Assembly: GCA_006384855.1 (NCBI GenBank)
Contig: VCJN01001460.1
Span: 54,264 to 118,263, forward strand
DNA from: Tetraselmis striata
Taxonomy: Eukaryota > Chlorophyta > Chlorodendrophyceae > Chlorodendrales > Chlorodendraceae
Length of the DNA: 64,000 bases
Direction: 5' to 3'
The translations under genes and the position numbers were made by a program. The number at the start of each line of letters is the position of its first letter. The first letter of the stretch is position 1. Below the pieces are notes generated by a model. It did no database searches. It worked only from the letters and a program-made list of their open reading frames with translations, and was not told the DNA's origin. Below are positions 11,184-35,444 of this stretch, piece after piece.

Positions 11184-13306
11184 GTTGCGCTAGCAAGTGG
11201 AAGCTTGGCGCAAAGGCAGAAGGTGGAGACACCGCTGCGTCTCGGGCACCATATAGGGGTAAGGGCTAGACGTGCTTGTAGCGTACTAGCAGCGTACTGC
11301 GGAATTTGTAACGTTGGTTTAATGTCCCCCTCCACATGGTCCGCCGGATGTAAAGCTTCCTCTGTGTGGGCTGTGTAGACGATAAGGGGGGCTCGGGCTC
11401 GGGTTTCCGGAGGTAAGGATGAATATACTTGGCGGGTGAGTGTGACCAAATAATGGGGGAGAGGCTCTAACCCATTGGCAGAGTTGACCTCGGACGTCTA
11501 CGGTGAAGCAGTCTCGGTCCGCCTCAGCGATGCCTAGGACATAGAAGCCATCGTGTATAGGTCGACTGAGAACATGTATGTAGTCTCCCTTCTTGGTGAG
11601 GGGCGCACTCCCAATAGGGTCTCCATCTTGAGTCGCTTGTGCACACCATAGGAGTTGAGCACGCGGAGGTCGATGATGCAGCGCGCCACTAGTCGACGCC
11701 GAGCTTGGGCACTAAAAAGAGTCTTGACACCCACTTGCGGCATGTGCCAAACTCCCACGCGTCGGACTTCACGAAGCGGGCATGCTCGCCCTCGTGGAAG
11801 GTGAGGTGCGGGCGGGGTAGCGTCTTGCATGCTGATGCCGTTATGAATGTGGGGTTGGGGGCGGTTGTGCTTGAAGGGAATCCGGACGTCCTCCTGGATG
11901 CAACGTAGGACTTGATCGCTCGCTCCGATAAGTCTTGCCGTTGCCGCCAATGCCGCCGCACGCGGTGTCGCATGTAGCTTGAACTTGGGTAGCATGACTC
12001 GGAACGGCGGGGCACACCGTTAGTTCTCCTCCTCGGCCTGCCGGGTAGGAGTCTTCTTCGCAGGGTTGCCGGCGGGCTGAGGCTTGCCCTTGATCTTGCC
12101 TTGTCCTTGTTCTTGTCCGCCCTCTCGTTGGTAGCTCGGTCTGCTTGTTTCTGCGCCTTGATGCGAATGTTGCCTCCGCCGCCGCCTCCGCCCCCTCCGC
12201 TGCCGCCGCCACCGCCCTTGAAATACACGGCTGCCCGTGCCTTGGCCGCAAGATGAAGGATGACCTCGAGTCGTTTGTCGTCTAGCGTGTTGAGGAGGCC
12301 GTCGACGACATTGCTAGAGGGCTCGACGGCGGTGGTGTCGAAGAAGCGGGCGTAGACGATGCGCTCGGCGACTCGCTCCTCGCCGGTAAATAAGTGCATG
12401 CTTGCACTTAAAACGCCGGCGGAGGTAGGTGACCCGGTCTTCAGCAGCCTGCCCGCACGTCGCAATCTTGCGAATCTCGGAGTCGAGTAGGTCGTTGGCG
12501 TCCGCGGTGTCGCAAGCGGTGGCGTTTTGCGCGCGAAGCGTTGCCACAGCGTTCGTGAGCTCCGCGTGATGCGCATAGGCGGTAAAAACCCCAGAGCACA
12601 GCATGTGGCGATACTCGTCGCGCGTCGCGTGCTTCTTTTCGTTGGTGAGATAGCGGTCCCATCACTCGTCGTTGCGCGGGTCCCACAGTAGCCCAGGGGT
12701 AGTGAGTCCTACGTGGGGCATAGACTCGGCGTATGCCCGCGGCATGCTGTAGTCGATCCTGTCGCGCAGCAGGTCGATGAACGCCGCGTGGCCGGGAAAT
12801 TTTGCAAGGAAAGCGGGGGGAGGGCCATCCTCCTCCTCGTCACCCTCGAGGGCGTACGTCGGCTGGCGTCACATGAATAGGTTTTGCGGCGGTGGTTGTT
12901 GAATGGGAGAAGTGTGGGAGTCTAGCTCGTCGAGTCGCAGCCGCATTCGCTGCACCAACGTAGTGACTAGTGAGGCTAGCGGTGTCAGGTGTCGAACTCG
13001 CGGCGTTGCCTCCACCGCCCACCATGAATCAAATCGCTAGGCAACCGTGTGCTGTCCATAGTACGGCATGCTGTCGTTATTGCACTACTCGCGCCGAAGC
13101 GAGCGGCTGGCGTCGAACGTCATGTGAGATCGTGAGATCGTGTGTCACCTTGGGCGACTGCGAGAGTCTCGATGCCGTTGCGCTAGCGGGAAGCTGGCGC
13201 AAAGGCAGAATATGGAGACACCGCCGCGTCGCGGGCGTCATATAGGGGTGAGGGCCGGACGTGGCTGTAGCGTACTAGCCGCGTACGCCGGAATTTGTAA
13301 CGCCGG
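11184..13306 (-). mobile_element. Reverse-transcriptase retroelement remnant between ~130-bp direct repeats
   Basis: Direct repeats of about 130 bp (11184-11317 and 13177-13306, roughly 85% alike) share gttgcgctagc, gcgcaaaggcaga, ggagacaccgc, catataggggt, gtagcgtactag and ggaatttgtaacg. Between them the minus strand carries a gag-like segment and the start of a reverse transcriptase. With only 2.1 kb between the ends, most of pol is missing, so this is an internally deleted, non-autonomous copy. The class (LTR, or DIRS-like with terminal direct repeats) cannot be settled. Confidence 0.6.
11530..13025 (-). pseudogene. Gag-reverse transcriptase fragment, frameshifted
   Basis: The minus strand reads a glycine-run linker and a basic region (about 12250-12000), then the N-terminal part of a reverse transcriptase: FHEGEHARFVKSDAWEFGTC, RKWVSRLFLVPKLGVD, IIDLRVLNSYGVHKRLKMET and YMFSVDL. 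This is the fingers/palm entry of the RT family that reads KWRLIIDLRPLN...MFSFDLQDGYY in other eukaryotes. Frames shift near 11690. The reading ends just before the catalytic YxDD region, so the enzyme cannot be active. Confidence 0.6.
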
Positions 13307-14108
13307 GTAACACCCGTCGTTCTTGGCCCCGGGTAATTCAAATACCTCCATAATTCTCACTATGACCACTACAGTATTTTATATCTATCAGACTCCGCCG
13401 CCCACTCCTCGCCTGCGCGCCACTGCATAGCGACTACTGTACATATTATCATTAGAACGCTGATATCCAGGCTGCCGGAGCACGTGAATAGTCCTATTGA
13501 AGTACGTCGGAAAAAGCTTCGTGTTTACGAATGTCGATGCGGTTGTACGAGGCTTGCCAGAGTGGAGCACTTTTCCCAAAAGTGTTTTGTATCGTGTCCC
13601 CTCGTAAACCGAAAGGGAGCAAAAAGGTAAAATTACTGTGGCTGATCAGTAGCCTGATATTATTATTTTCTATCTAATTATAATATAATATCAGGCTACT
13701 GATCAGCCACAGTCGCGCGGCCCGCCACTACCGCGCCCCTATGCGTTGTGTAATCTCGTCCACCCGCCCACTGCACACGCTTGGCAGACCTTAGCGCGCT
13801 TAACCTCCCCTGCGTAAGAGCTGCTGTACCGCATTGCTAAAAGCCCGTGAGCTCTGTACAGTTTTCAGGTAAGGGCGGAGGCACGGGCGCGCGGCGGGCC
13901 GGCGAGTCGGCGTTGTCGAGCTGCGCCATATCTCCCACCGAGCATGGACTTCCTGTGACCCCCCGTGTAATTTCCGACCCACCCTGGGGGCTTCGCTCCC
14001 TTACCAACGTGGCGCACCATTTTCTGCCGAGTTTCGAGTGCATTGTACACCGTGTTTCCTGAATTTGCCGCCCTCGTGCGCCGCGCCGCACTGCTCCAGG
14101 CGCGCGCC
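13307..14108. other. Upstream region of the UBX gene with a perfect hairpin
   Basis: No gene is supported. The stretch contains the 28-bp inverted repeat at 13636-13712 and probably the promoter and 5' UTR of the UBX gene. The reading frame of its first exon stays open upstream to an ATG at 14043, so the start could lie there. Confidence 0.45.
13636..13712. repeat. Perfect inverted repeat, 28-bp arms and 21-nt loop
   Basis: The left arm 13636-13663 (ctgtggctgatcagtagcc...) is the exact reverse complement of 13685-13712. The AT-rich loop is 13664-13684. No flanking target duplication is obvious. It may be a very small MITE or a structural hairpin. Confidence 0.85.
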
Positions 14109-18926: not shown

Positions 18927-20334
18927 CGTGCTAGTGCCGCACAGGGTTCCGTGGCGTGCGTGGTCGCCGTTGTGACGTCGCTCAGTCTGCGCAGGGCGGG
19001 GGCGATGGGGAGCAGCTGGAGTCAGAGCTGGCGAAAGGAGTACTATTTACTCCTGCTTGGGGAGCCCGTGGCAGAAACGACTGAAGCGGTGGAAGGCTCG
19101 GAGCACAGGCGGGGGGGGGGGGGGGGGGTCCGATGCAGACAGTCGCTGGGTCGGTGTACGAGTTTCAGGGGTGAGGTTAAAAGGGGTGATCAAGCGACGA
19201 TGGGGATGTGGCTTGCGGTGGGGGAAGGAGTCGGCGAGCGCGGTTGCTGCTGGGGCGCCATCAAGACAATATGGCGGAGCGCGGCAGAGCCGGAGCCGGA
19301 GACAGTACTTTGGTGCTGTATATTCCGCCTCGGCGCACGGGAGCCGCAGAACGGAGAGCCGCCAGCTAGGGGAGGGCCCATTCGCGAAGCGATGCCTCCT
19401 ATGGCCACTCAGCGCTCCGACGCGAAGTGAGGGAGCGTCAATGTAGATGCATCTCGACGATATGGGGGGAGGACCAGCGCGAAGAGCTCGAAACGGCGAG
19501 GCTCTCGGGTGCGGGTGCGGCGACAGTCCCCGTCTTGGACGTTCGCCGCGGGGACTGACGCAGGTGGCGGGGGCGCATCAAATGCGAATACCTAACACGG
19601 GCTGGCGCCGATTAGCTTCCACACCAGGGGAAGAACTCACAGCAGTGGGTGCTCCAACGAGGATCTTCCACGGTTGGAGAGGGCAGGGGGGGGGGAGGGG
19701 ACGGAGGGGACGAGGGAAAGCTCCTTGGGGGAAGACGGATGTGGGACTGCAACGTACGGAGCGTGACCAAACTGGCTGTCAGGGTGTCCTCCTCCGGGCG
19801 CGGGCAGGGCGGCGTGCGCCCGATCTTGGCCGCCTTGACACAACGAATATTCCAGGCTGGCGGAAAATCGCTATATCAGGCCGCCACGCCATCTATGCGG
19901 CGCAGTGCTAGGGCGCAGCAGTATCACAGCTCTGATTGCCCTTTTCTTTGGTGATTTCCGATATCGCCTGTTGCTGCTAGCTCATGTAATTATTAAGTAA
20001 TTAGTATCACAGCTCTTCTCTCTCCAGCAGTTGCGATGGTCTCCAGTGTGTATCCTCGTAGCGGGAGCGCCACCCACGTGCCACAGGATTCTGTACTTAA
20101 GCTTATTTCATTTTGTCTACCGAGCGACTCGTCCAGCCGCCCCGTCGTCCACCACCACCACAAGTCCGCCACTCGATATCAAATATTTATAAAATACTCT
20201 GATTTGTTGCCGGCCAGCAGCAACCATCGACTTGGGGCACAGAGGAAGCACGGTACTTTTCGCGCACTTTTTACATGACAAGGATTTTGTTGCTCGATAG
20301 ATGGATACACAGCGACCGCCGACTCGCTACGCAC
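18927..20334. other. Upstream region of the ELO gene, then repeat border
   Basis: The sequence contains a G run at about 19112-19128 and GC-rich DNA without coding evidence; the open frames here (for example plus 19057-19446 and 19447-19911) lack any motif. The ELO promoter should lie just above 18927. The 22-bp stretch at 19973-19994 matches 2177-2198. From 20335 the tyrosine-recombinase element begins. Confidence 0.45.
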
Positions 20335-20457
20335 ATTTCAAAGTTGAGTCTGGTTTTGCCAAAAAGGTCGCGCAGGCTGTTTTACATGGTCAAGAGCCGA
20401 AATTGGCAGGATGGTTTAGCGAAAGCGTGGTGGGAAAACGGAGTCAGGGGGGGCCCT

Positions 20458-20640
20458 GCGTGGAACGCAGCGAAAACTGGAAGATGGCAGGCTCAGCTGT
20501 TCTGGCTGCTTTTATGTCTACTCGTGCTGCACCCAACAAGGGCGCAACAACAGTTACTAGTTCCCGTACCACTGAGCAGCACTTGTAGCTAAAAAGCGGT
20601 TAGGTCAAGGATGGAAACCCCATAAACTAGTTTAGATCAT
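20458..20640 (-). repeat. A2 terminal direct repeat (183 bp) of the tyrosine-recombinase element
   Basis: This stretch begins gcgtggaacgcagcg and ends gtttagatcat. I read it as identical to 23379-23561 (offset 2921). It abuts the 27-bp B1 repeat. Confidence 0.9.
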
Positions 20641-20718
20641 TTCAAAGTTGAGTCTGGTTTTGCCAGTCTTGAGCGAACGTAGAGAGCGGTGGATTGACGG
20701 AGAAGGGGTAGCGCCAAG

Positions 20719-22347
20719 TCATGAAGGAGGCACTGGGAAGGCCACCGCTGCGGAGTCCTGTTGGACTTGGAAGTGGCGGAGGGGGGCGATGTATGTGTCC
20801 ATGAAGCACCACGCGCCAGGAGAAGGAAGAACGTTGGGGTCGATGTAGTCCAGAACGACATCAGAGTTAGTGGCCCAACCGCCTTGGTAGCGGATGTGGG
20901 ACAGTGGCGCTCCGATGGCGTTTGCTGCAGAGGCTGCGCCCTTGCGTAGACTGTGTGAAGTCCAGGAAGTGCCAGCAGGGGGGGCAGCGTTGACTAGGTT
21001 GACTGCTGTAGACAACCAGTCTGACATCGTAGCCGCAGTCCAAGGTTTTGACTGCTCAGCCACATTGACAGCCCAGAAGTTGGAGGCAGCCAAGCCAACA
21101 GTAACCAGGGTGACAGACTGGACGTTGCCGATGAAGTGGTGCAAGAGACGTGCCACTCGAGGGTGCTCGGACACTGGAAGGAGAAGTACGCGCAGGTCGC
21201 CGGGTCCCCGCCGGCCAGCGCGACCCTTCTCGCGGTAGATCTGCAAGGTGATGTTGTAGGTGTCGACATGCACATCTTGCATTCGACAGGAGACGCCAGT
21301 AAGGCCCCTGGCAAAGAACAGGAAGTTGACAACCGAAGCCAAGAGGGCTCGGTAGTCGAGGTGGGACTCTGGGTAAGGAGCAGACACAATTAGCTCGGCC
21401 TTTGAGACGAAGCGGTAAGCTACATCCGCAGGCAGAGGGACACGCAAAGGGGCAGCGTCCAGTCGGCGCTGACGCAACATTAACCCACGTCTTGCTGAAG
21501 TGAGGTGTAGGCTGTCCTTGGCGATCGGGACGAGGTTGTGCAGCTCGAAGAAGGTGTTGATGGCAGACAGATAGGGCTGCAGCGATTTAGCTGCGATGTG
21601 CCCTCGCTCCCCGATCCAGGCAACGTACCGAACAACAGTAGCAGTAGTCGCTTCCAGCGGGCTGATGTTCTCGGAGTCGTGGCAGAACTCAGCGAACTGA
21701 GACAACCTGCCGGCGTAGCTCTTGAGGGTCTGAGCGCTGAGGGAGCTGGAGAGCAGGTCGAGCGTCCGCTGGCCTAGCTCGTCTGAGCCGAACGCGTCCT
21801 GCAGTCGAGATCGCAGTGACGCAGCCCATGGAGCGATAGCCGCGGGCTCGTCAATTACGTAAGTGCGTCGTTTTACTGACAGAGTTCCACCGGCACGGCT
21901 ACTGTTCGCAAAGTACTCGGCATCAACGGTTAGGTTCCCGGCAGTTGGCCGGTAGTTGCTGGACGGGTTTGCAGTAGCTCCAGTACGGGTTTGCGGGGCT
22001 AGGTTCAGGTAAGAGGGCCGCCCCGCGCGCCCTTCGCGCTCATAGCGCCTGTCACGTGCGTAACGTACACGCGCGAAACTTGGTCGTTGCGAACCGGTTG
22101 TAACACGTAGTGTAACAACCGACGAACGCAGAGATGGGGTTGTAAGAAAGGCGGATGGTTGAGCCGCCATGTGCAAGCGTGCGGATGGTTGAGCCGCACT
22201 CGGCTGTAGCTGTAAGAAGCGCCGCACCGAGGAAGGTCTAAATGAAGTATGTAAGGTGGGGGGGTCAGGTCCTGACACATGGCGCTCATCCCGCCGTTGA
22301 GCTGCAAGGGTGCGTCTTGCGGCGGTCACCGAAAGGTGGCCTCGCAA
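20719..22347 (-). CDS. Tyrosine recombinase (integrase) of the mobile element
   Basis: This 542-aa intact ORF has a low-complexity, Arg/Ser-rich N-terminus of about 180 aa. A core-binding SAM-like domain follows (about 205-300; AQTLKSYAGRLSQFAEFCHD), then the catalytic domain. Likely active-site residues are the Arg in FFARGLTGVS (R347), a Lys in YREKGR (K374), the HSLRKG box (H465, R468), a Trp in QGGW in the usual second-His/Trp position (W491), and the Tyr nucleophile in VVLDYID (Y501). These enzymes cut and rejoin DNA through a phosphotyrosine and would insert the circular form of the element. The overall look (HSLRKGA, GGW, DYID) fits recombinases of DIRS-order and Crypton-like eukaryotic elements. 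All residues needed for activity appear present. It lies directly downstream of ORF1. Confidence 0.85.
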   Translation of the reverse strand: MRGHLSVTAARRTLAAQRRDERHVSGPDPPTLHTSFRPSSVRRFLQLQPSAAQPSARLHMAAQPSAFLTTPSLRSSVVTLRVTTGSQRPSFARVRYARDRRYEREGRAGRPSYLNLAPQTRTGATANPSSNYRPTAGNLTVDAEYFANSSRAGGTLSVKRRTYVIDEPAAIAPWAASLRSRLQDAFGSDELGQRTLDLLSSSLSAQTLKSYAGRLSQFAEFCHDSENISPLEATTATVVRYVAWIGERGHIAAKSLQPYLSAINTFFELHNLVPIAKDSLHLTSARRGLMLRQRRLDAAPLRVPLPADVAYRFVSKAELIVSAPYPESHLDYRALLASVVNFLFFARGLTGVSCRMQDVHVDTYNITLQIYREKGRAGRRGPGDLRVLLLPVSEHPRVARLLHHFIGNVQSVTLVTVGLAASNFWAVNVAEQSKPWTAATMSDWLSTAVNLVNAAPPAGTSWTSHSLRKGAASAANAIGAPLSHIRYQGGWATNSDVVLDYIDPNVLPSPGAWCFMDTYIAPLRHFQVQQDSAAVAFPVPPS

Positions 22348-22383
22348 GGCTCCTGCAGCTCCGACGAGCGGCGCCCCACACCG

Positions 22384-23261
22384 TCACTCGTGCTCACCTT
22401 CGCGGCCACGTCCACGTCCGCCGCCACGTCCTCGCCCACGCCCGCGACCTGCAGCTGCAGCCGCAACTCGAGAAGTAGCGGTCGCCTTGGCGCTGCTGGC
22501 AACGGTCGCCTCGAAGACACGACGCTCGTAGTCCCTCATGAGGTCCCCAAAAATTGCAGAACCCAAATGCTCCGAAGCAGGCTGAAAATGCTGAGCTCGC
22601 AGCACGTCCAGAACACCTTGGTCACCGTGCACCCGCTTGTTCTCATCCAGTTTCCGCAGGAAGGCTAGACGAAAACGAAACGCCTTGTCGATGGCCTCGG
22701 CGTGATTCCGAGCTCTCGCGAGGTAGGGGGTGAAGTCATGGTTAGTGGCGGGGACGTAAGGTAGCAGCTCGTCGAGCGCCACGAAAAGGGCGGCCATGTG
22801 GGCCCCGAAACACGACATCCACAAGTACTCCTCCTGGGCCGGCAGACGCCGGTCATCCTGCTTGAGGTACTCGTTCGTTAGGTCGGTGCTCAGGGGGAAG
22901 AGTCCAGGCACTCGGCTGACCGGTCGAACGGCCTCGTAACCAGACTCTGCTCTCTGCAGTAGCTCTGGCACCGCGAGGTAATCATCCTCGGCACTGCTCA
23001 CGGATTTTGCTCCGACACGGCCGCTCTGGGCTAGCTCTAGCAAGTCGGGGCGCTCTGCGGCTCCCCGCTGCCTGTCGGTTGTCCCGCGAAGCGCTGCCCT
23101 GAGCCGGAGCCATGTGCCCCTTCTCCATCAACAACGCGATCACGAGCCGTCAATTGTGCCACAGCTGTAGCCAGCTCTCGCAGTAATGAAGAATGGGCCC
23201 TCATATCTGCGTTCAGCGACTGCAACGTCGGCCCAGCGACGGGTTCTTCTCCATCTGACAT
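22384..23261 (-). CDS. ORF1 of the recombinase element: gag-like protein with RG-rich tail, apparent -1 frameshift
   Basis: The N-terminal part starts at 23261 (MSDGEEPVAG) with a short helical region (ADMRAHSSLLRELATAVAQL). Near 23060 it runs into a stop in its own frame. The rest continues in the -1 frame (RPDLLELAQSGRVGAKS, EDDYLAV, LPAQEEYLWMSCFGAHMAAL, DELLPYVPATNHDFTPYLAR, FRFRLAFLRKLDENKR) and ends in an Arg/Gly repeat, RGRGRGRGGGRGRGREGEHE. The RG tail suggests nucleic-acid binding, as in gag/ORF1 proteins; this is inference. The diverged second copy needs the same -1 step at a similar G run (GCGGGGA here), so programmed frameshifting or slippage is possible; a chance indel or an intron is the alternative. 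I know no named domain for the central region. Confidence 0.65.
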
Positions 23262-23378
23262 GGTAACGCACGGACGTACGGACGAGAATATCACACTCGG
23301 GTGGGGAGCCGGGTGTGGTCTTGAACAACCTGGGGTGACCTTGCTCGCAACGGGTTACGAGACATTTTTTACATCGCA

Positions 23379-23561
23379 GCGTGGAACGCAGCGAAAACTG
23401 GAAGATGGCAGGCTCAGCTGTTCTGGCTGCTTTTATGTCTACTCGTGCTGCACCCAACAAGGGCGCAACAACAGTTACTAGTTCCCGTACCACTGAGCAG
23501 CACTTGTAGCTAAAAAGCGGTTAGGTCAAGGATGGAAACCCCATAAACTAGTTTAGATCAT
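23379..23561 (-). repeat. A1 terminal direct repeat (183 bp) of the tyrosine-recombinase element
   Basis: This is the partner of 20458-20640 at the 5' end of the element, just upstream of ORF1. Diverged versions occur at 24055-24236, 36130-36318 and, inverted, at 44744-44935. Confidence 0.9.
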
Positions 23562-23945
23562 ACCGACTAAAATAGCAGGGTTGGGTTCTTACCACAGCAC
23601 GCGGTATAAGATTAGTCGGTATATCTATCCCATAGTCGCTCCTGGTTTGTATGATGTTCCTTCCACAAGGATTATGTCCATCGCCCGTGCTATCGCGTCA
23701 GCACCCGTAGACTCGCGTACCCTGTAGCGACTACAGTACAGGTAGCGCGGCGGGCCGGCGGCTTGCTGTATTGATCTGTAGTAGTCGCTACCGAAAAATC
23801 AACACATCAAGCCGCCTGAAAGCGGCCCGCATCCTGCATGAGGCGGGATGGATGAGTGATCGATGCGCACACGGTTAGTTCAGAGTATTTAGTACGGCAC
23901 CTGTAGCGCTACCTGGTACCCTGTGTGTCTCGAGTTATTTTGTCA
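23562..23945. other. Spacer between two recombinase-element copies
   Basis: A 9-bp inverted pair, accgactaa (23562) and ttagtcggt (about 23611), forms a small hairpin next to the A1 repeat. The rest contains short gtagcgactacag-type dyads and no gene. Confidence 0.4.
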
Positions 23946-24289
23946 AGACGTCATTTTGCCAAGACGTCGCGCAGGCGATTTACACCGTCAAGAGTCGAAG
24001 ATGGCACAGACGTTCAACTAAAGCATAGAGAGAAAACCGAGTCAGGGGGGCGCTGTGTAACACAGCGAAACTGGAAGATGGCAATCTTAGCTGTTACAGT
24101 TGCTTTTATGTCTACTCGTGTTGCATACGAGCGGGTGCAGCGACGGGTGAAATAGCAACTCGTACCACTTAGCAACACATGTAGCCGGAAAAACGGTTTG
24201 GATAGAAGGAAACCCCGTAACCTAGTTTAGATAATTTCAAGTTGGGACGTCTGCTTTTGCCAAGGAAGAGCGAACGAAGAGAGCGGCAG

Positions 24290-25701
24290 ATTGCCGAAGC
24301 AGAGTTAGCGCCAGGTGACGGAGGATCCACCGGCGGGAGGGTCACTGTCGAGGAGTCTTGTTGAACTTGGAAGTGGCGAGGGGGCGCGATGTGGCCAAAG
24401 AAGAACCACGCGCCATGCGCATGTGAACGGAGGACTACGTGGGGTCGACGTAGTCCAAAACGACGTCGGAGTGAGTTGCCCATCTGCCTTAATCGCGGAT
24501 GTGGGACAGCGGGACTCCGATGGCGCTAGAGGATGCACCCTTGCGATTGCTGTGAGTGGCCCATGAAATGTCGGCGGGAGGGGCAGCACCTACCAACGAG
24601 ACGAACGGCCATAGAGAGCCAGTCCGACATTGCAGCGGTAGTCCATGACTTGGATTGCTCGCTTTGGTGACCGCTAAGAAGTTAGTCTCGGCCAAGGCAG
24701 AAAGGACCAAGGGGACAGACTGGACATTGTCGATTAAGTGGTGCATGAGGCGGGCGACACGCACGGGGTGCTCCGACACGGGAAGGAGCAGTACGCGTAG
24801 ATCGTCGGGGCCGCGCCGGCCGGCGCGTCCCTTGTCACGGTACGCCTTCATGGTGATGTTGCAGGAGTCGACATGCACGTCCCGCACTCGGACGTCACTC
24901 GACGGTGAGTCCCGTGGCAAAGAACATGAAGTTGACAACCGCGGCCATGAGGGCCCGGAAGTCGTACTAGTACTCGAAGGGAGGGGCACACACAATCAAC
25001 TCGGCCCGCTGCTCGACGAAGCTGTAAGCGACATACATCGGCAGGTAACGGGACGCGCAAAGCAACAACCTCCATGCGGCGCTGCCTGAGTAGAACTGAG
25101 AAAAAACGCGCGGGGGTGAGGTGCATGCTATCTTTAGCGATGGGGACGATGTTGTGCAGTTTGAAGAACGTTTCGATTGCCGACATGTAGGGCTACTATA
25201 GCGCGCGACTTAGCCCCAATGTGGCCCCGCTCAGCACCAGTCCAAGCAACATACAAAACGATTGTGGCAGTAGTCGCCTTCAGTTGGCTAATGTTCTCCG
25301 AGTCATGGTAGAACCCCTGGTAGAACTCGACGAGTTGAGACAGCTTGCCGCCGTTGCTTTTGAGCGTTTGGGAACATGGGGATCTGGAGAGAGGTTGAGT
25401 GTGCGCTGCCCCAGCTCGCCCGAGCAAAACGCTTCCTGTAGGCGGGCCCGGAGTAAAGCCGACCATGGGGCGAGAGGCTCGGGCTCGTCAATCACGTAAC
25501 TGCGACATTTGACCGACGGGATATCATGAGGCCGGGCCTTTTTGGCAAAATAATTGGTCGCGTCGGCTAAGGTACTGGTAGTTGGAAAGTCATTGCACAA
25601 GGGTTAATCGGGGGGCACCGATACGGATTTACGAGCCAATGTTCAGGTAGGCAAGCCGCCCCACGTGCCCTTCGCGCTTGTAGCGCATGTCTCGCGCGTA
25701 A
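24290..25701 (-). pseudogene. Decayed tyrosine recombinase (copy 2)
   Basis: Pieces in several frames match the recombinase of copy 1: YVIDEPEPLAPWSALLRARL, LQEAFCSGELGQRTL, AYRDKGRAGRRGPDDLRVLL, HPVRVARLMHHLIDNVQSV, SWATHSNRKGASS and a D-V-V-L-D-Y-V-D box. HSLRKG has become HSNRKG, and frames break at least four times, so it cannot be active. Confidence 0.75.
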
Positions 25702-27487
25702 ATCGAAATTGAAATTGATTGCAACTTCTAGTCTGCCGCATCCACTCGCTCAGAGTGAGTTGTCTTTAGGATCTGCTATCTCTAACTACAGTGGGCAACA
25801 CGAAGTGTTATCACAGCTCAAGGTATCGGCTATCCTCCTATGTTTCCTAGCCCCTCCTCCGTCCAGTGGGCTATAGCTAAGACAACAGCGCCCCCCCCCC
25901 CCTGCTGTCCCTACCTAAATCAGACCCATCCCATCAAGAGCTCAACATACACGCTAAGGCAGCCAGAGGCGTCCCGCGCGTGTTGCTACTGAGGTGTGAT
26001 GGGGGAGTGGAGCTTACCGGAATAGTTGCATGGTGCTCAGTATTTATGTACCGATGTGCCGGCTAGCTTGGTGGGGTAGGGGCTACGTTGCCCTCCATCT
26101 CTAATATTTTTGGCACAATATATTCTGCGTCTGGTGCCTTTTCATGACTTCGTCTGGTGCCTTTACCAAGCCCGCGGGTTGGGCGATAACCTGTTTATAA
26201 TACTTGCGGGGAAAAGTGATGGTGAATTCGAAAACATGCATTCCGGGCGAATTGGCTGAAAACGTCCGCAGTTCTTGGGTTGAGGCGCTGACATTCGCAA
26301 GCGTGCGTCCGGCTTGGGGTTGGGCGCCTTGCCGGCGGAGAGTATCATCAGACGGCCCACCATCGGCTGCAAGTGGATCGTCCGGCGCGCGGGAGGCGAC
26401 GGAGGCGGTATGCCTCTGCCGCGAGCTGGGTCAGGCGGGACGCCTGGGTTGGTGTGCTGGTTTTGGAGGTATGTTTGAGGGGGGCGGTGGCCTCCGAGGC
26501 CTCTCCTCTCTCGGTGAGGGCGTGGATTGCGGCCAGTGGAGCCGGCTCAGGGTGCGGGACTGGATCGATGCTTGTCGCCGGCTGATCGACTTCCGGTGAA
26601 GGGTCGTCGTCGTCCATTTCCGTGTCTTGAGGGGCTGCCGCGGCCGGGGGTGGGCCGCTTGTAGTTGGCCAGTTGGTGGTGACGGGAGCTCGCGTGGGAG
26701 CTGGCCGTGGTGCATCGCCGACTGGTCGGCTGTAGTCGGCGCCGGTTGGTGAATAGTCACCATCTTTCCCGCCCGTGCGGGTGCATGGTACTGGCTGCGA
26801 CGAGTTTCGCGTCGGATCCCGTGTTCGTGGTGAGTAGCCCAGCAACTCTTCTCACCCCTGCCGGAGCGGCGGCAGCCGGCATAGGGGTGCGTCGGGTCAC
26901 CGCTCGGACGTCGTGAGTTGATTTGTATACCCCGAGCTTTGGGCCGAGGGTACGGATGGGTTCAGAAACATACGGCTGCGGCGCACGTCGACCCCCGTCG
27001 CACGGTTCCGGGTCACAATATAGCTGAATAGCATGGCGACTTGTGTGGCACAGTCGGCACCAAGGGGAAGATCGATTGGGGGTTGGCGGGCCTGGCGGTT
27101 CAAAACGAAGAGAAGACGGCGGACAGCATGTGGGAGTAGGGTGCCTGTGAAATTTTCGCGGCAATGGTTGTGGGGATCTTGGGGGGTTGGGCTCTGCCGC
27201 TGCGAGGCGCAATCATCGAGAGTGACGCCGACCGCGGCCTTATGTTGCTCCTCGGGTCTTTTGATGTCCATGGTGGCTGTAGTGATGCTCTCTTGTGGAG
27301 CCTACTTTTCACGCCTCTGTGGGCGCTTGCCGGCAGTTGGCCTGATGCTGGGTCGTCCGGTCGTCGGTATGTCCACCGTTTTACAAGGGTACACTATCAT
27401 CACTAGTAGAGCCGCGCCGGCTCGCCCGGATTTCGTACATACGCAGTACTTCGCCCGGTGTTAAGGGCTGGCTGGAAAGTGAGAAGT
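25702..27487 (-). mobile_element. Nested insertion X1 (1.8 kb), LINE-like by its target duplication
   Basis: The insert is defined by comparison with copy 1 of the recombinase element. The flanks tctcgcgcgtaa (25690-25701) and tctcacgggtaa (27488-27499) agree at 10 of 12 positions and fit a target-site duplication. No terminal inverted repeats are seen. The left end, read on the minus strand, ends in a caatttcaatttc simple repeat, as at the 3' end of some LINEs. The insert carries an ORF chain on the minus strand but no recognisable reverse transcriptase, so it may be 5'-truncated, or an ORF1-only or otherwise non-autonomous element. Confidence 0.55.
26348..27271 (-). pseudogene. Unidentified ORF chain of insertion X1
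   Basis: Two successive minus-strand frames look coding. The first (27271-26897) includes HAVRRLLFVLNRQARQPPID and DCATQVAMLFSYIVTRN. The second (26845-26348) is Pro/Ala/Thr-rich with an acidic patch (DTEMDDDDPSPEVD) and ends in a Leu/Arg-rich helix. An overlapping frame contains CRLCHTSRH, which recalls a zinc knuckle but with the wrong spacing. I do not recognise the family. Confidence 0.35.
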
Positions 27488-28136
27488 TCTCACGGGTAAC
27501 GTACACATGATGGTCGTTGCAAACCCGTTGTAACCCGTGAAGTGACAACCGACGGACGCAGTGATGATATGGTACGGGAGACGGGTTGTTGAACCGTCAT
27601 ATGCGGGTGTACGGATGGTTGAGCCGCACTCGGCTGTGGTTGTGCTACGCCGCACCGATGATGGTCTAAATGGAGCAGGTAGGGTAGGGGGTCAGGTCCG
27701 GACACGGGGCGCTCATCTCGTCGTTGAGCTGCAAGGGTTCGCTGTAGTGTGGCCACCGAAAGGGGGCCTCTCAAAGCGCCAGCATCTCTGACGGAAGGCG
27801 CCCAACGCCGCCACTCGTGCTCACCTTCGCGGCGTCGCCCACGACCGCCACCGCGTCCACGTCCATGCCCGCGACCTGCGAGCGTCGTCGTCCCCACCCG
27901 AATAGTGGCGGTATCCTTCGCGTTGCAGGCGATTGTCGCCTCGAAGACCCGACGCTCGTAATCGCGTGTCAGGTCCCTCGCCGGAAACCGCAGAGCCTAG
28001 ATGCTCTGCGGCGGGGAAGAAATGCTGATGAGCCCGCAGTGCACCTCACACCCCATGATCAACGCGCATACGTTTGATCTCGTTGAGCCTCCGCATGAAG
28101 GCTAGACGAAATCGGAATGCCTTGCCGATGGCCTCG
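27488..28136 (-). pseudogene. ORF1 tail / recombinase N-terminus of copy 2
   Basis: This is the continuation of copy 2 between its two insertions. The RG-rich ORF1 tail (GRGHGRGRGGGRGRRREGEHE-like, 27870-27810) and the recombinase N-terminus (AAQRRDERPVSGPD) are recognisable. The stop between them has been lost, so both now lie in one frame. Confidence 0.7.
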
Positions 28137-28161
28137 CACTGTGAGATTCAGATGTGACATA
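28137..28161 (+). repeat. Left terminal inverted repeat of X2
   Basis: This 25-bp end begins CACTGTGAGATTC and matches the inverse of 35420-35444 with two mismatches. Confidence 0.9.
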
Positions 28162-28843
28162 CGGGTGACGAAGCACTACTACTAGCGACTATTATTTATC
28201 CGTGAAGGCAGCTGCTGGTGGCGGCACGTCCATCCAGTTACGTGCGAGTACATCCGGCGTTATTGCCGGCGGGCGATAAATCCTTTTTGTCATCATTCTT
28301 GGTAGTCGTACTAGCCCGGTAAATTGTTACATGGCACTGACGTATAAGGTACAAGGTTGTCCGTGTAGTACCGGGTAGTACGCGATATATTTATTGAGCC
28401 GGTACCGGGTATCTAGTACCCGGTACCCGGTACCCGGGCACGATGACGAGGGGTCCTGTGGATAACTACGACTATTAGTACATGGGAGCGCAAATCTCAG
28501 CCGTACTTTTTGGCCAAAGTGGGGAATTTTGTGTACATTATAGCTAGTACTGCTGAACGGGCCTGCCAGCCGTCCGATCAAAGGTCATCAGATGGGCGGT
28601 TTGGCGGCCATGTTTTGCCAAAGAGTGCTCACGTTACATAAATATTCGCGAGGGGGAGGGCGGGGGCAGGCAGCGGTTTGCCGAAGAATGATCGAATTAC
28701 AATATTCGCGACAGCTGCCATCGGGGAATGTGGCCCGGGGGGGGGGGGGGGGAGGCGGGCGGGCGTGGTCCCCCCGCCGCCCCCCCCCCCCCCCCCGCCG
28801 CTCCCGCCGGGGAAGTGAGGGGAGGGGGGTAAGGGGGCGGGGG

Positions 28844-29480
28844 CTACTGCTTGTTCTTGTTCTTGCGTGCCCGGGGGACCCTCCGCTTCGACGATCTCGC
28901 TGCCTCCGCCTCCGCCTCCGCCTCCGCCTCCGCCTCCGCCTCCGCCTCCGCCTCCGCCTCCGACTCCGCCTCCGACTCCGCGACCGTCAGTTTCTTACCT
29001 CGGCGTTTCTTCACTGGCCTCTTCCGCTTCGTGTCATCCGTCAGTGTCTTCACCACCCCGGGAGGCTGTGCCGTCGACGACGCCGCCATGAGCTTCCTTA
29101 CCTTCGCGTCGGGACGCCCCCTTGTGCCCAGACACCAACAACAAGCCACAATCGTTTCGCCTTTAAGCGGCTGAGGATGCGGCCTCCTCGGCCACCACGA
29201 GTTGCGCCGCTGGCACTGTGGAAGCCTTGGCGTTGAGGTGGGCCTTACGGCGCTCCCGGACGAACCTGCGCGCGGCACAAGTTAGCCACGAGTGGGTGCG
29301 TGCTAATGTGGAGGATGGAGTGTTTTGTTGCGCGCCCACCTTGTCACGCGTTTCCTCATGTCTTTCTCGTCCTCCTCGATGCCGGCGGCGCGGACACGCG
29401 AGACAACAAGGCTCGCCGCCCACTTTTGCCCCGGGGGGCGAGGTCGGCCATGGCGCTGTGAGCGGTGAAGGGGGGGGGGG
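28844..29480 (-). CDS. Putative Lys/Glu/Ala-rich protein encoded in X2 (exons uncertain)
   Basis: A minus-strand reading GQKWAASLVVSRVRAAGIEE, DEKDMRKRVT can be spliced (ACAAG|GTGGGC ... GCGCAG|GTTCG) to RFVRERRKAHLNAKAS and AAQLVVAEEAASSAA, followed by a stop at about 29163. A second frame farther down (29278-28844) reads KRKRPVKKRRGKKLTVAESE, then an (EA)n run encoded by the hexanucleotide repeat, and a basic end SSKRRVPRARKNKNKQ. Whether these form one protein or two is unclear. The basic composition suggests a nuclear, DNA-binding role. No domain is recognised. Confidence 0.35.
28895..28972 (+). repeat. (GCCTCC)n hexanucleotide microsatellite
   Basis: About twelve copies of gcctcc run in tandem with a few gactcc variants near the end. 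On the minus strand the array encodes alternating Glu-Ala. Confidence 0.9.
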
Positions 29481-29699
29481 GCGGCCGAGGTGAAGAAACT
29501 AACACCCAGTCGACGACCGCCTTCCGCAGCAGTCAACGACACATCGGAGGCGAGGAGCAGCGCGCCACTACTATTAATATGCACGTATTGTCAAGAGCTA
29601 GTCGGTGCGGCATTGTGTCGGTGTAATTTCGCAATGTTTATTGTTGAAGTAGCACGGCGTAATGGATACGGCGAGTGAATCCGGGATAATGTGTGCGGT

Positions 29700-29775
29700 A
29701 GGGCGCGCGTATATGTGCGCGACGAATGTGCGCGCGCAGCGTTGTGCGGCGGTGTGCGGCGGTGTGCGGCGGTGT
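29700..29775. repeat. Short tandem repeat (gcggtgtgcg)n
   Basis: Three to four tandem copies of a 10-bp unit (gtgcggcggt) lie just before the 371-bp array. Confidence 0.7.
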
Positions 29776-29884
29776 GCACCGATGTTAATATAGTGTGAAT
29801 ATTATATCGGCCGTAGACGATCAGGTCTGGCAGCACCGCCCGTGCTTGTAAATAAGCGACAATGGATCTAGTCTCCCGCTAGTC

Positions 29885-31040
29885 TGTGCACCGCCAGTGC
29901 ACTCCGCAAGCCTCGCCTCCATCCGCGTCGGAACCGGTAGTAAGTGTTGTTGTGTGCGCACATCGTGACAACATTACACGGTGGCAATTGCAATTATTAG
30001 CGGTGGATAATGTGAAGGCGTTTTCGAAATCGACAGAGAATGAGGCGGTGCTGGCGGAGTGCATTGGCGGTGCATAGAATAGCGTGTTGCTGGGGGTTTG
30101 GCTGCATCGGACGCCGTATTCCCACCCATCCGGCACGGAATGTCCGATTTTCACACATTTGTGTGTTAATAAAGTGTGAATATTACGCGTCTTTTACGCC
30201 GGGTGGATGGGCATCCGGCGTCCGATGCACCCCAATTATTTGCAGCACGCTACTCTACGCACCCCCAACGCACTCCGCAAGCCTCGCCTCCATCCGCGTC
30301 GGAACCGGTAGTAAGTGTTGTTGTGTGCGCACATCGTGACAACATTACACGGTGGCAATTGCAATTATTAGCGGTGGATAATGTGAAGGCGTTTTCGAAA
30401 TCGACGGAGAATTAGGCGGTGCTGGCGGAGTGCATTGGCGGTGCATAGAATAGCGTGTTGCTGGGGTTTTGGCTGCATCGGACGCCGTATTCCCACCCAT
30501 CCGGCACGGAATGTCCGGTTTTCACACATTTGCGTGTTAATATAGTGTGAATATTACGCGTCTTTTACGCCGGGTGGATGGGCATCCGGCGTCCGATGCA
30601 CCCCAATTATTTGCAGCACGCTAGTCTGTGCACCGCCAACGCACTCCGCAAGCCTCGCCTCCATCCGCGTCGGAACCGGTAGTAAGTGTTGTTGTGTGCG
30701 CACATCGTGACAACATTACACGGTGGCAATCGCAATTATTAGCGGTGGATAATGTGAAGGCGTTTTCGAAATCGACAGAGAATGAGGCGGTGCTGGCGGA
30801 GTGCATTGGCGGTGCATAGAATAGCGTGTTGCTGGGGTTTTGGCTGCATCGGACGCCGTATTCCCACCCATCCGGCACGGAATGTCCGGTTTTCACACAT
30901 TTGTGTGTTAATATAGTGTGAATATTACGTACGCGCCTTTTACGCTGGGTGGATGGGCATCCGGCGTCCGATGCACCCCGAATCTCACCAACACGCTACT
31001 CTACGCACCCCCAACGCACTCCGCCAGCCCCGCCTCTTTC
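29885..31040. repeat. 371-bp tandem repeat, three copies plus a partial, each with an internal inverted repeat
   Basis: The marker gcactccgcaagcctcgcc occurs at 29899, 30270 and 30641, exactly 371 bp apart, and a partial copy starts near 31016. The first and third junctions differ slightly (tctgtgcaccgcca against tctacgcaccccca). Each unit contains a long dyad: the arm gcggagtgcattgg...gcatcggacgccg is answered in inverse by cggcgtccgatgca...ccaacgcactccgc. Each unit therefore resembles a MITE-like hairpin of about 250 bp that has been tandemly copied. It lies inside transposon X2. Confidence 0.85.
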
Positions 31041-31129
31041 CGCGCAGGTCCTACGTTCCATTGTATGTATATACATACGTACATGTACTGCTCCGAAACC
31101 AGCCCAAACTTAATGAGTGCACAAGTGTA

Positions 31130-31300
31130 AATGGGGGGGTGGGGGGGGGGGGGGGGGGGGATGTGGCGGCGGGGCATCCACTCACACATACCCCGGCGAT
31201 GCATGACAGATATTACATGCCGTGGCGGGTCGGCGGGCCGACCCGGCGGGCCGACCCGGCGGGGGGTGGGGGGGCGGGGGGGGGGGGGGGGGGGGGTCTA
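31130..31300. repeat. Two long G tracts
   Basis: G-dominated runs at about 31135-31160 and 31259-31297 flank a short tandem cggcgggccgaccc. Runs of this length can form G-quadruplexes. Confidence 0.7.
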
Positions 31301-32009
31301 TTCAACTACACGTGCCACAGTGTCGTTTCGTGGAGCAGTGTATGTGCCCGGCCTCATTTATACCGCCCCCTACCTGCGCTGCATGGTCCACCCCTACGAA
31401 TTACTTAGCACAAACCGCCATTACTTAATAGGAACCTAGCACAGCCAGGCTTATATGCCCGCTTTGCCGATCAACTTCTACGCACTTTCCGTCCCTCAAC
31501 CGCCGGACATGGGGGTTAAGCCGCCAGCCTCGGCAGTTGCTTAGCCAGACTTGGCATCCCGTACCGTGTCCATGGCTTCGCAGCTCTGCCGCCGGCACAC
31601 GCCGAGTCCGGGGCTTGCTGCCGCGGGGTTGCGCACGCATGCACGCACGGTAATACGCCGCCGACGCCGCCACGCTTACTTCCACCACCTTCGCCAGCCG
31701 CAGCTTCGCACGCCGTTCCGCCGACATACGAAACGCACGAATCCCCCCCCCCCCCCCCCCCCGTCCCCGCGTCATGTATAATATATTCGAGGCGACTATG
31801 CGGGGCGCAGCACACGCCGCGGCGTGGGTCGGCGGAGCGGCATGCGGCGGGAGCCCTAATGGCCGGGCAGTATCGACACCCACACTGGCACCGCCGCTCA
31901 CCTCCGACGCGGATGAACCGCCTCCCAAAGGAAACATGCCGGTTGGTGGTAAGCCCAGCAGGCGTGGGGTGCCGGCGCCGGTACTGGTGCGACGGAGCTG
32001 TCGCGTCAG

Positions 32010-32637
32010 GAACCGCACCGCATGTGGAGCAACACATGGCGGTGCCGGCCCCACCTATGTCTAGGGCCACCTCCTCACAACACCCCGCCACGACGGCGTC
32101 GGCCACCGCCGACGGCGCCGTTGCGGGGGGGGACGCCCTGCCAGGCGACGATGATGCGCCTGGTGCGCCACGTCAGGAAGCGGAGGAGGCCGTGGTCGAG
32201 GCGACTGATCGGGCTGAGGGGGTTGTTGAGGCGAGCGAGGCTGTGCTCGCGCCACCCGCCCCGCAGCCACCTGCGGGACATGCCGACTTGCTCGTCGCCA
32301 TGTTGACCGGAGCACTACGAGCAGTGGCGGGAGGCGGCCACATGCACTATCATGTGCGTGGACTGCGGCCAACGGACGGACTGGGAGTGTTGCTGCGACG
32401 GCACCCCGGCTTTGTGCGGCCCCAAGTACCCATGCATGGCGACCCATCAGCGGGCAGTCCCCTGCCCGACCACGGCCACGGTGAGGGCGGAGTTCCGCCA
32501 TGTCAGGGACGCGTTCCACGACGCGACTCGCGCCGCCGCGTGTGAGGCTTCCGAGAAGGCACGCGCGGCTGGTGGGGTGCGCAGGGTGAGGCGGCGGACG
32601 GCCCAGGAGCTGAAGGAGAGCGAGACATGCCGTCAGT
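32010..32637 (+). CDS. Putative acidic protein with Cys-rich C-terminus (partial, in X2)
   Basis: A plus-strand frame with an acidic, Ala-rich region (DALPGDDDAPGAPRQEAEEA, then VVEATDRAEGVVEASEAV) leads into LLVAMLTGALRAVAGGG. A shift of frame near 32345, by a short intron or an indel, enters MCVDCGQRTDWECCCDGTPA followed by LCGPKYPCMATH. The last part is Arg/Ala-rich (EFRHVRDAFHDATRAAACEA) and ends at a stop at 32637. The CxxC...CCC...C...C...H spacing suggests zinc binding, as seen at the C-termini of several transposase types. This is inference, and I cannot place it in a family. Confidence 0.4.
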
Positions 32638-32683
32638 GAGGTCGGGCGCAATGTCGTTGGGTGGGGCACACGGACGTGTAACA

Positions 32684-32999
32684 CTTGCACTTTGCGCGTA
32701 CTGCTGGGTTACATCCAGGCGGCGTCACACTATGCAACCGGAAAGGCTGCGTTGCTACTGCAAACGATGCGACGCCTCACTCTGTAGCAACCGCTGCCGC
32801 GCCTATCCCACAGCCGCTGCCCCCCCCCCCCCCCGCGCGGGATCCCCGCCATCAGCAGCTTGCACTTGCACTTTGCGCGTACTGCTGGGTTACATCCAGG
32901 CGGCGTGACACTATGCAACCGGAAAGGCTGCGTTGCTACTGCAAACGATGCTACGCCTCACTCGGTAGCAACCGCTGCCCCGCCCATCCCACTCGCCTT
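32684..32999. repeat. Direct repeat of ~135 bp, period 181 bp
   Basis: The block beginning cacttgcactttgcgcgtac and continuing through tgctgggttacatccaggcg and aaggctgcgttgctactgc occurs twice (ctttgcgcgt at 32690 and 32871), with few differences. A C tract (32820-32834) lies between the copies. The second copy leads directly into the minisatellite. Confidence 0.85.
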
Positions 33000-33415
33000 G
33001 GCGCCGCGCTGCCCCGGCCGCCGCGCCTTGGCGCCGCGCTGCCCCGGCCGCCGCGCCTTGGCGCCGCGCTGCCCCGGCCGCCGCGCCTTGGCGCCGCGCT
33101 GCCCCGGCCGCCGCGCCTTGGCGCCGCGCTCCCCCGGCCGCCGCGCCTTGGCGCCGCGCTGCCCCGGCCGCCGCGCCTTGGCGCCGCGCTGCCCCGGCCG
33201 CCGCGCCTTGGCGCCGCGCTGCCCCGGCCGCCGCGCCTTGGCGCCGCGCTGCCCCGGCCGCCGCGCCTTGGCGCCGCGCTGCCCCGGCCGCCGCGCCTTG
33301 GCGCCGCGCTGCCCCGGCCGCCGCGCCTTGGCGCCGCGCTGCCCCGGCCGCCGCGCGTTGGCGCCGCGCCTTGGCGCCGCGCTGCCCCGGCCGCTGCGCC
33401 TTGGCGCCGCGCTGG
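32998..33415. repeat. 30-bp GC-rich minisatellite, 12 full units plus partial
   Basis: The unit (gcgccgcgctgccccggccg plus ccgcgccttg) runs from 33001 to 33360 as twelve near-perfect copies, with one g-to-c change (33131) and one c-to-g change near the end. A shortened, rearranged tail follows to 33415. Because 30 is divisible by three and the unit lacks stops, several frames stay open on both strands; I do not count these as genes by themselves. The array lies at the downstream end of the minus-strand gene at 33430-34870. Confidence 0.95.
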
Positions 33416-33429
33416 GTCTAGAGTCCTCC

Positions 33430-34870
33430 CCTCCCTGGTGAGCGCGTCCACCTGCGCCTTGCGCTCGGGGCCGTCCTCCTCCGTCACCACATTCTGCAAC
33501 CCCCACCGCGTGACGAACCACGCAGCTCCTTGCATGCGCTTGTACATGTGCCCAAGCACCGCCTGGGGACGCGAAGCTCCTTCTCGGTCATGATCGCCTT
33601 CACCCGGGCCTCCTCGAGCAGCGGACCGGCGTTAAGAATGGAAAACGTTTCCATGTGGTTCAAGCAGTCCTCCATGACCCAGCCGGACTGCACCGTCACC
33701 TTGCCTGACCCTGCAGTCATGGAGGGGAATGCCGTCACGCCCACGCCCACGCACGCCCACGCCCGGGGGGGGGGGGGGGGGGTTTACCTTTCGATTCTTG
33801 GACACTGCAAACGAAGGGCGCAACCCGCGTTCAAAGTTGCTGGGTATCGGGACTAAAGCCTGGCGCCGGTCTTCCTGCTTCATAGCTCGGAATCCAATGT
33901 GGCCCTGCACGGTGACAAATTTCCTCCAGAAGTCCCTTCCCAAGCCAAAAAAAAACAGGTGGAACGGCGCGAGGGGGAAGAGGTTGACCATGCTGACATA
34001 GCCAAGGACCACATGCACATGGCACACGCCATGGCAGCCAGTGTTGTGCTTGGCCTCCGCCAGCCGGGTTGTGTTGAACGCACGCCGGGCAAGGTGCGTG
34101 ATTCACTGGACAAGTCATCGCCTTCATGGACGGTTACCAAGCGAGCATCCCCGTCCGCATCCACATGGGGGTGCTCCTGGGCAGCCGCCATAGCCTCCAC
34201 AACCTGCCACGCCGACCGGGCGGGTGCGTGTGATTCCATACAACCGCAGTTGAGTGGTGCCACCCGCACGCAGGCCGGGCCCACTCACCTCTGAACGCAG
34301 AAGGTCCACAATGTCACCGTCCTCGAAAACAGCGCGCCACTGGGTCGCCCCGCCGTAGTCCTCCAACACCCACTCGGTAACGACGCCGGTTATCACGCCG
34401 TAGTGCCATACTCCCCGGAACTTCTTGGCGATGACCTTCATGTAGAAGTCACCGGGATCGCCTTTCCGTATCACGCCCTCATCGGCAGCTTCCACGTCCG
34501 CCGGCGGCCACGCAGGCGCGTCGATGTCCACACCGTCTTCGCCAACGGGGTCCTCCCCCACACCCATCACATCGTCCTCCGAGACCGGCGCCGGCGGGCC
34601 GTTTCCGACGGCTGCAGCTACTCCTGCTGCCGCCCCTGCCGCTGATGCTGCTACTGCTGCCGCCCTGCTGCTGCTGCTTGTAATACGGCGGCCTTGCGGT
34701 GCAACTTAGCCGCACGCTTCAACGAGTGGCTACAGTTCGGGTATTTCCGGAAGTGCCGCTCTCGCGCCGTCCTTTCACTACTGCCCGTCACGATGCCGTG
34801 GCAGTGCTTGCATGTGTACACGCCATTCTTCGACACACTCGACATCCATCCCTCTCCCGGCATGCCTGCT
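33430..34870 (-). CDS. BED-type zinc finger / Tudor-like protein carried by transposon X2
   Basis: The minus strand begins around 34870 (MPGEGWMSSVSKNGVYTCKH) with a BED-like finger: CKHC, then H and C in RHFRKYPNCSH. After an intron it reads PVSEDDVMGVGEDPVGEDGV and a Tudor-like segment, DFYMKVIAKKFRGVWHYGVI ... TQWRAVFEDGDIVDLLRSE, ending at GAG|GTGAGT (34299). A further exon reads RDFWRKFVTVQGHIGFRAMK ... RPSFAVSKNRK and stops at AAAG|GTAAAC before a poly-C intron. The next reads GSGKVTVQSGWVMEDCLNHM and then, after a frame change near 33560, RPQAVLGHMYKRMQGAAWF and WGLQNVVTEEDGPERKAQVD. BED fingers bind DNA in transposases, and Tudor-like folds read methylated histone tails; the combination suggests a transposon protein that might target chromatin (inference). 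The frame change may be an inactivating indel. Confidence 0.5.
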
Positions 34871-35419
34871 GCCGCGCGCGCGCGGGGGGGGGGGGGGGGG
34901 GGGGGTTGAGAGTTGAGGTGGATGTAGCCCACCACCGGCATGGAGCACAAATGCGAGTGCGCGGCTGTCCGCGCTTGGTTCAGCGGTGAGCGGCGGTGAC
35001 CGCCAGGCGACCCCGTACTTCATGCGCGTGCTGGGGCGTTACACAATCATCAACAGTTAGGGCGGCTGCATTAAAACGCGCACCTACGAACACCACCTAC
35101 CGCCTACCACCTACCGTACCACCTACATCCGCCCACACTTCCGCCCGTCGTGCCGCACACCGCCGCACACCGCGGCGATGTGCAGCGATGTGCAGCGAGT
35201 ACTTGCAGCCGCCTGTACTTAGCCCGGGTACTCCGCGTCGGCGGGCGACACGCGAGCCCGCGTGCGCATATCAATTTGATGAAATTATGGAAACGAGAAA
35301 TTCATATAGTACTTTACAGGTCGCGCGCGATAGTCGTCGCTACTGGGTATGAAATCCACGTCCCTCGTCCGTCCCGTATCGTCCCCATATGTCGTCGTTC
35401 GTCACCAGTAGGGCACATT

Positions 35420-35444
35420 TACGTCACATCCGAATCTCACAGTG
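35420..35444 (-). repeat. Right terminal inverted repeat of X2
   Basis: This end reads ...catccgaatctcacagtg, the inverse of the left end, and is followed by the TCG target duplication. Confidence 0.9.

Follow-up and report, generated by a model that had tools for sequence, protein, structure and literature searches.

Whether a mobile element built on the split direct repeats of a tyrosine recombinase (YR) retroelement can be maintained without a reverse transcriptase (RT) of its own is the question raised by a locus of the chlorophyte Tetraselmis striata. The window, meaning the whole stretch of DNA that was analysed, comprises 64,000 nucleotides of contig VCJN01001460.1 (assembly GCA_006384855.1, forward-strand positions 54,264 to 118,263). 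On its minus strand, at 23561-20334, lies a 3,228-bp element, referred to as copy 1, in which terminal and internal repeats, a first open reading frame (ORF1) and a recombinase gene are arranged in the order A1-ORF1-recombinase-B1-A2-B2. Two further copies in the window carry the same RT-less junction between ORF1 and the recombinase, and both proteins are under purifying selection. The explanation to which we give slightly better than an even chance is a PAT/Ngaro-like family of YR retroelements that lost, or never had, RT and RNase H, that kept its own Gag-like protein and recombinase, and that borrows the RT. Positions are those of the window, copy 1 is read on the minus strand, and an element position equals 23562 minus the window position. 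The features of copy 1 are as follows.

23379-23561, minus strand: A1, left terminal repeat, 183 bp (element 1-183), identical to A2
23037-23261, minus strand: N-terminal part of ORF1, 74 amino acids, kept in copies 2 and 3 by tblastn, with an excess of third-position changes
22384-23043, minus strand: C-terminal part of ORF1, 219 amino acids, possibly Gag-like by position only, with an Arg/Gly-rich C-terminus and under selection
22048-22383, minus strand: linker of about 330 nt, free of codon periodicity, conserved in three of three copies and without RT
20719-22347, minus strand: YR ORF, 542 amino acids, recognised by Pfam match, selection and catalytic letters
20638-20665, minus strand: B1, internal repeat, 28 bp (element 2897-2924), identical to B2
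20458-20640, minus strand: A2, internal repeat, 183 bp (element 2922-3104), overlapping B1 by 3 nt
20362-20457, minus strand: spacer between A2 and B2, 96 nt, also present in copy 3 (alignment)
20334-20361, minus strand: B2, right terminal repeat, 28 bp (element 3201-3228), identical to B1

The two A repeats of copy 1 agree at 183 of 183 positions and the two B repeats at 28 of 28. The overlap of B1 and A2 consists of the bases ATG, the same three that open A1 and close B2, so that B1A2 represents the two ends of the element joined to each other; these three shared bases (ATG), read from one occupied site, bear on the absence of a target-site duplication, a trait of Ngaro- and PAT-like elements. 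The DIRS-order-like layout given in a preliminary description of the locus is borne out by the identical repeats and by the joined ends, and its impression that the A repeats look identical is right and extends to the B repeats as well. ORF1 occupies element positions 301 to 1178 approximately and the YR ORF positions 1215-2843. Outside the repeats and ORFs there remain about 117 nt between A1 and ORF1, about 330 nt in the linker, 53 nt between YR and B1, and 96 nt between A2 and B2, which leaves no room for an RT.

The recombinase assignment rests on several matches. In Pfam, the YR ORF matches Phage_int_SAM_1 (5.9e-8) and Phage_int_SAM_4 (6.1e-6), the N-terminal SAM-like domains of phage-type integrases, and its residues 429-503 match the Phage_integrase catalytic domain at 9.9e-4, below the curated cutoff; phmmer gave a weak match of residues 460-503 to Cre (best E 0.0051). 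The letters R347, K374, H465, R468, W491 and Y501, which the preliminary description had listed as retained, were all confirmed at those positions, with only the H..R..W..Y part inside the profile match and the R and K assigned by motif alone. The AlphaFold model of the protein (pLDDT 30.8) is too poor for use. Among the Pfam matches up to E 1, no methyltransferase-like (MT) domain, a feature of PAT and DIRS1, was found in ORF1 or YR. Nor did DUF3504 appear among the families matched by YR up to that value, a published criterion that covers animal Cryptons only: the match is stated for three animal Cryptons, and the YRs of DIRS and Ngaro do not match, in the excerpts of PMC3212892 (this and the other papers cited here are represented by excerpts throughout).

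The absence of RT is shared with the other copies found by blastn of the copy 1 element against the window.

44745-46604, plus strand: copy 2, element 2-1899, 71.8% identity
35445-36318, minus strand: copy 3, piece 1, element 1-865, 73.6% identity
27489-28136, minus strand: copy 3, piece 2, element 863 to about 1511, spanning the ORF1-YR linker, 75.6% identity over 28136-27511, end placed by eye
23930-25701, minus strand: copy 3, piece 3, element 1499 to approximately the right end, containing B1-A2-spacer and a decayed B2, 71.1% identity over 25701-23954

Both copies are decayed (tblastn), and the right part of copy 2 was not found within the window. The blastn matches of the copy 3 pieces cover element positions 1-865, 863-1481 and 1499-3208, and the pieces were read by eye as one element split by two nested insertions. 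The junction running from ORF1 through the linker to YR is continuous in copies 1 and 2 and is interrupted in copy 3 solely by an insert of about 1.8 kb (25702-27488); at this junction RT is absent in all three copies. Furthermore, the three copies can be aligned over the whole linker of about 330 nt with no visible scar. The silent divergence of copies 2 and 3 from copy 1 is about 0.5-0.85. The recurrence of the junction in copies 2 and 3, noted in the preliminary description, is therefore upheld, and its view of RT absence as a family trait holds for the three copies of the window. The 1.8-kb insert, located at the YR coding start and containing GC-rich open frames, was considered as the missing RT and dropped because it is flanked by its own imperfect duplication of about 11 bp (9/11, by eye). 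Two of its open frames were searched without a Pfam match to E 0.01, the other frames being viewed only by eye, and no RT motif was seen by eye across six frames.

Selection was examined on the three-copy alignment through the ratio of nonsynonymous to synonymous divergence (dN/dS), with codons containing gaps or stops removed beforehand. For the C-terminal part of ORF1 the ratio was 0.237 against copy 3 (207 codons) and 0.268 against copy 2 (201 codons), for its N-terminal part 0.43 and 0.54, and for YR 0.255 against copy 3 (423 codons) and 0.364 against copy 2 (123 codons), and shifted-frame controls with copy 3 gave 1.05, 1.61, 1.09 and 1.57. Between copies 1 and 3, changes at codon positions 1, 2 and 3 numbered 41/219, 30/219 and 81/218 in the C-terminal part of ORF1 (p 7e-9) and 100/445, 80/445 and 182/444 in YR (p 3e-15). 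The third-position excess of YR is weak in the 150-nt windows starting at element 1515, 2115 and 2715, and that of the ORF1 N-terminal part has p 2e-4 against copy 3 and is weaker against copy 2. The branches of A1 and A2 in copy 3, 0.095 and 0.120, place about 0.107 of its divergence after insertion; subtraction of this decay gives a pre-insertion dN/dS of about 0.10 for the ORF1 C-terminal part and about 0.15 for YR, rough values from one pair. By these measures, purifying selection acts on the main part of ORF1 and on the recombinase, and since this selection is seen in RT-less copies, it suggests that the RT-less form is an old, long-lived propagating lineage and not a recent deletion. Should the ancestor shared by the copies have lacked RT at this junction already, it follows that selection maintained both proteins while the lineage had no RT; the alternative to such an ancestor is that RT was deleted three times at one junction, which splicing could do.

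ORF1 of copy 1 is split over two frames, 23261-23037 and 23043-22384. Where it breaks, ORF1 of copy 2 runs in a single frame (tblastn matches, join read by eye) and that of copy 3 is shifted by an indel of its own; owing to this break the intactness of copy 1 is not established. The position of ORF1, its selection and its Arg/Gly-rich tail fit Gag, its AlphaFold model is poor (pLDDT 43.9), and its single Pfam match is at chance level (E 0.07). The open frames of ORF1 and YR lie 36 nt apart, so the gap of about 40 bp in the preliminary description is right as a distance between open frames, and as a coding gap it becomes about 330 nt by the selection signal. In fact, element 1215-1482 shows no third-position excess (p 0.57 and 0.55); the excess begins beyond about element 1515, near window position 22047 where the YR selection signal starts, and is clear from 1665. 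The YR ORF starts with TTG, and its next in-frame Met is residue 60, with the ATG at 22170. Because the linker is without codon periodicity, the YR ORF is probably non-coding over its first 100 or so codons; counter to this, copy 1 and copy 3 (27490-27996) both have an open frame through the linker, and the linker has a dN/dS in the YR frame of 0.58 and 0.46.

The second part of ORF1 and the YR ORF of copy 1 lie in one frame at 22347-22386 with a single UGA (UGA CGG) between them, and copy 3 has UGG at this place and reads on. Readthrough of the UGA is conceivable, and the lack of codon periodicity in the linker speaks against it. A conserved RNA structure in the linker was considered and is not claimed: the linker of copy 1 is more stably folded than all of 100 shuffles (z -3.85; z -3.3 with 60 shuffles), those of copies 2 and 3 show no such advantage over shuffles (z +1.28 and +1.0), z -2.75 is reached elsewhere in the element, and the covariation term of the linker is a penalty.

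Over the first 185 alignment columns, A1 and A2 of copy 3 are alike at 140 of 172 positions, and A repeats of different copies at 127-131 of 168-172. In a maximum-likelihood tree, A1 and A2 of copy 3 are sister to each other with 96% support (200 bootstraps; branch 0.016). As the A repeats of copy 3 group together and those of copy 1 are identical, each insertion seems to produce a matching pair of A repeats, as from one template, a regeneration per transposition that reverse transcription predicts. With 211 of 211 repeat positions identical (95% upper bound 1.4% divergence), copy 1 was inserted recently. The proposal that it may move today agrees with its identical A and B repeats, and the frame break in its ORF1 stands against it.

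A model is proposed in which the element would be transcribed and this RNA intermediate packaged by its own ORF1 protein, whereupon RT and RNase H would be supplied in trans by another YR retroelement. B1A2 would then serve as the template from which the junction of the ends is rebuilt to yield a closed DNA circle, and the element's own recombinase would integrate the circle by a crossover in the bases common to both ends. A retroelement served in trans is favoured because a retro cycle has an obvious use for B1A2, and simple excision and reinsertion has none that is evident. The latter cycle would belong to an RT-independent, Crypton-like DNA transposon, whose recombinase excises a circle and reinserts it, with B1A2 as an internal recombination site and the element as a large unit A-ORFs-B fused through a shared junction to a 307-bp unit A-x-B. 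Such a transposon, which we hold to be unlikely, would need no partner element and accords with just two proteins, RT absence in three of three copies and a selected recombinase; Cryptons, however, are described without terminal inverted repeats or long direct repeats (PMC3212892), and a DNA-only cycle does not readily explain why A1 and A2 resemble each other within a copy. It is unlikely, too, that the element is a self-sufficient two-gene DNA transposon, equipped with a Gag-like protein and the ends of a retroelement, whose split repeats and recombinase replicate it and rebuild its ends via circular DNA without RT. The preliminary description had left a choice between a new class of element and a non-autonomous element dependent on RT from a relative, of which the second fits best, with the peculiarity that its own two proteins are under selection, and the first is conceivable and not favoured.

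Recurrent loss would account jointly for the single common junction and the selection: RT-bearing parents would exist, their spliced RNA would repeatedly yield RT-less copies, and selection would act on the parents. Close to where ORF1 ends, copies 1 and 3 have a donor-like GTGAGC and copy 2 has ATGAGC (by eye), in keeping with this; yet the motif remains in the DNA, no RT-bearing parent was seen, and the linker aligns across the copies without a scar, and we regard the explanation as quite improbable. That the copies are dead deletion derivatives of a Ngaro or PAT family, with ORFs as relics, would suit the decay of copies 2 and 3 and the broken ORF1 of copy 1, but is already disfavoured and appears very improbable given dN/dS of 0.24-0.27 for the ORF1 C-terminal part and 0.26-0.36 for YR at a synonymous divergence (dS) of 0.54-0.85, and given the fully identical repeats of the recently inserted copy 1.

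Several points weigh against the retroelement served in trans. No RT-bearing partner has been demonstrated, the window not having been searched as a whole for RT domains; ORF1 is without a family match; and the selected upkeep of two proteins together with a borrowed polymerase is unusual. The branch joining the A repeats of copy 3 is short (0.016), and gene conversion could be another cause of the resemblance between A1 and A2. Only one RT-like sequence was noticed, in a relic at 11184-13302, a decayed element between direct repeats of 121-130 bp that are 83-85% identical, whose frame, read by eye from 13302 to 11184, is gag-like and then the start of an RT. This RT reading is by eye only, with no Pfam or PDB match, and the ends of the relic differ from those of the main element, so that the relic is a possible RT source in kind only. 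Homology of ORF1 to its gag-like frame is not claimed either, since 83 of 2000 shuffles score equally (42 of 2000 with looser gaps).

Relatives were sought in two contig collections with searches that demand exact pattern matches and would miss many true relatives. In the viral contig collection, the YR protein gave 0 relatives, the RT-motif pattern 0 stretches, and two YR-motif patterns 0 and 1 stretches, the latter (L001) with ORFs that are not recombinase-like by eye. In the genome contig collection, the YR protein gave 34 pattern stretches and 0 relatives, and one YR-motif pattern gave 15 stretches, all bacterial. The best tblastn values on L001-L016 were E 2.2 for YR and 0.049 for ORF1.

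Elsewhere in the window, an ELO-family elongase is encoded in a single open frame (PF01151, 9.6e-53) and there is a GATase_7/DUF3700-like protein (3.3e-7, DUF3700 below its cutoff), by which the window is eukaryotic. The second insert in copy 3, at 28137-35444 between pieces 1 and 2, measures 7,308 bp and has imperfect terminal inverted repeats of about 22 bp that start with CACTG, ends that begin CACTGTGAGATTC, and a 3-bp CGA duplication; we take it to be CACTA/EnSpm-like. It holds a tandem array of units of about 370 bp (29877-31044) and short Ala/Pro/Arg-rich coding repeats at about 32.9-33.4 kb. At 13635-13713 the two arms of a perfect inverted repeat, 29 bp each, enclose a loop of 21 nt, and a control window covering it (13567-13886) folds much better than shuffles (z -7.7).

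YR retroelements have been proposed to derive from the union of a Crypton-like recombinase with an RT module (PMC4157794, PMC6681497, in excerpts). A selected RT-less family with a Gag-like protein and a recombinase would mean, if true, that the modules are able to separate once more and that split repeats can persist with a polymerase from other elements. The purpose of split repeats and the supply of RT in trans to YR retroelements would thereby become testable, and three copies within one window cannot settle the life cycle of the element.

Among known systems, TOC1 of Chlamydomonas has split repeats and is not known to encode an RT. The excerpts of open-access PMC literature, including PMC8226300, PMC3537659 and PMC9210276, describe no element that combines split repeats, gag and YR with a lack of RT. 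In contrast to DIRS1-like elements, copy 1 has no inverted terminal repeats or internal complementary region, with 0 inverted repeat pairs of at least 20 nt within 19500-24500. Cryptons (PMC3212892) resemble it in having YR as the sole recognisable enzyme and differ in lacking long direct repeats, which here measure 183 and 28 bp. VIPER shares the layout A1 ... B1 A2 B2 but has RT/RNase H (PMC6681497), and its short form SIRE, which corresponds to the A2-to-B2 region (PMC12278014), is akin to the short A2-x-B2 unit described here; the present element retains ORF1 and YR under selection. PAT-like elements (Pat1, Toc and Kangaroo), known from chlorophytes and the brown alga Ectocarpus, likewise combine split direct repeats with YR, but published descriptions give them RT/RNase H and usually an MT domain, neither of which was found here (PMC4157794, PMC3266345, PMC12477816). 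Ngaro, laid out as A1-[ORFs]-B1A2B2, for instance in Cafeteria burkhardae, has in common with the present element the split direct repeats, an ORF1 that is possibly Gag-like by position, and YR in the last ORF, whereas its ORF2 encodes RT and RNase H within about 6 kb, against 3.2 kb and no ORF2 here (PMC8547959). The element displays the split repeats of Ngaro and PAT (in copy 1, and in copy 3 with a decayed B2) and a YR with R..K..HxxR..W..Y; since RT/RNase H defines both groups and is absent here, it is not classed as a member of either, while being built like them.

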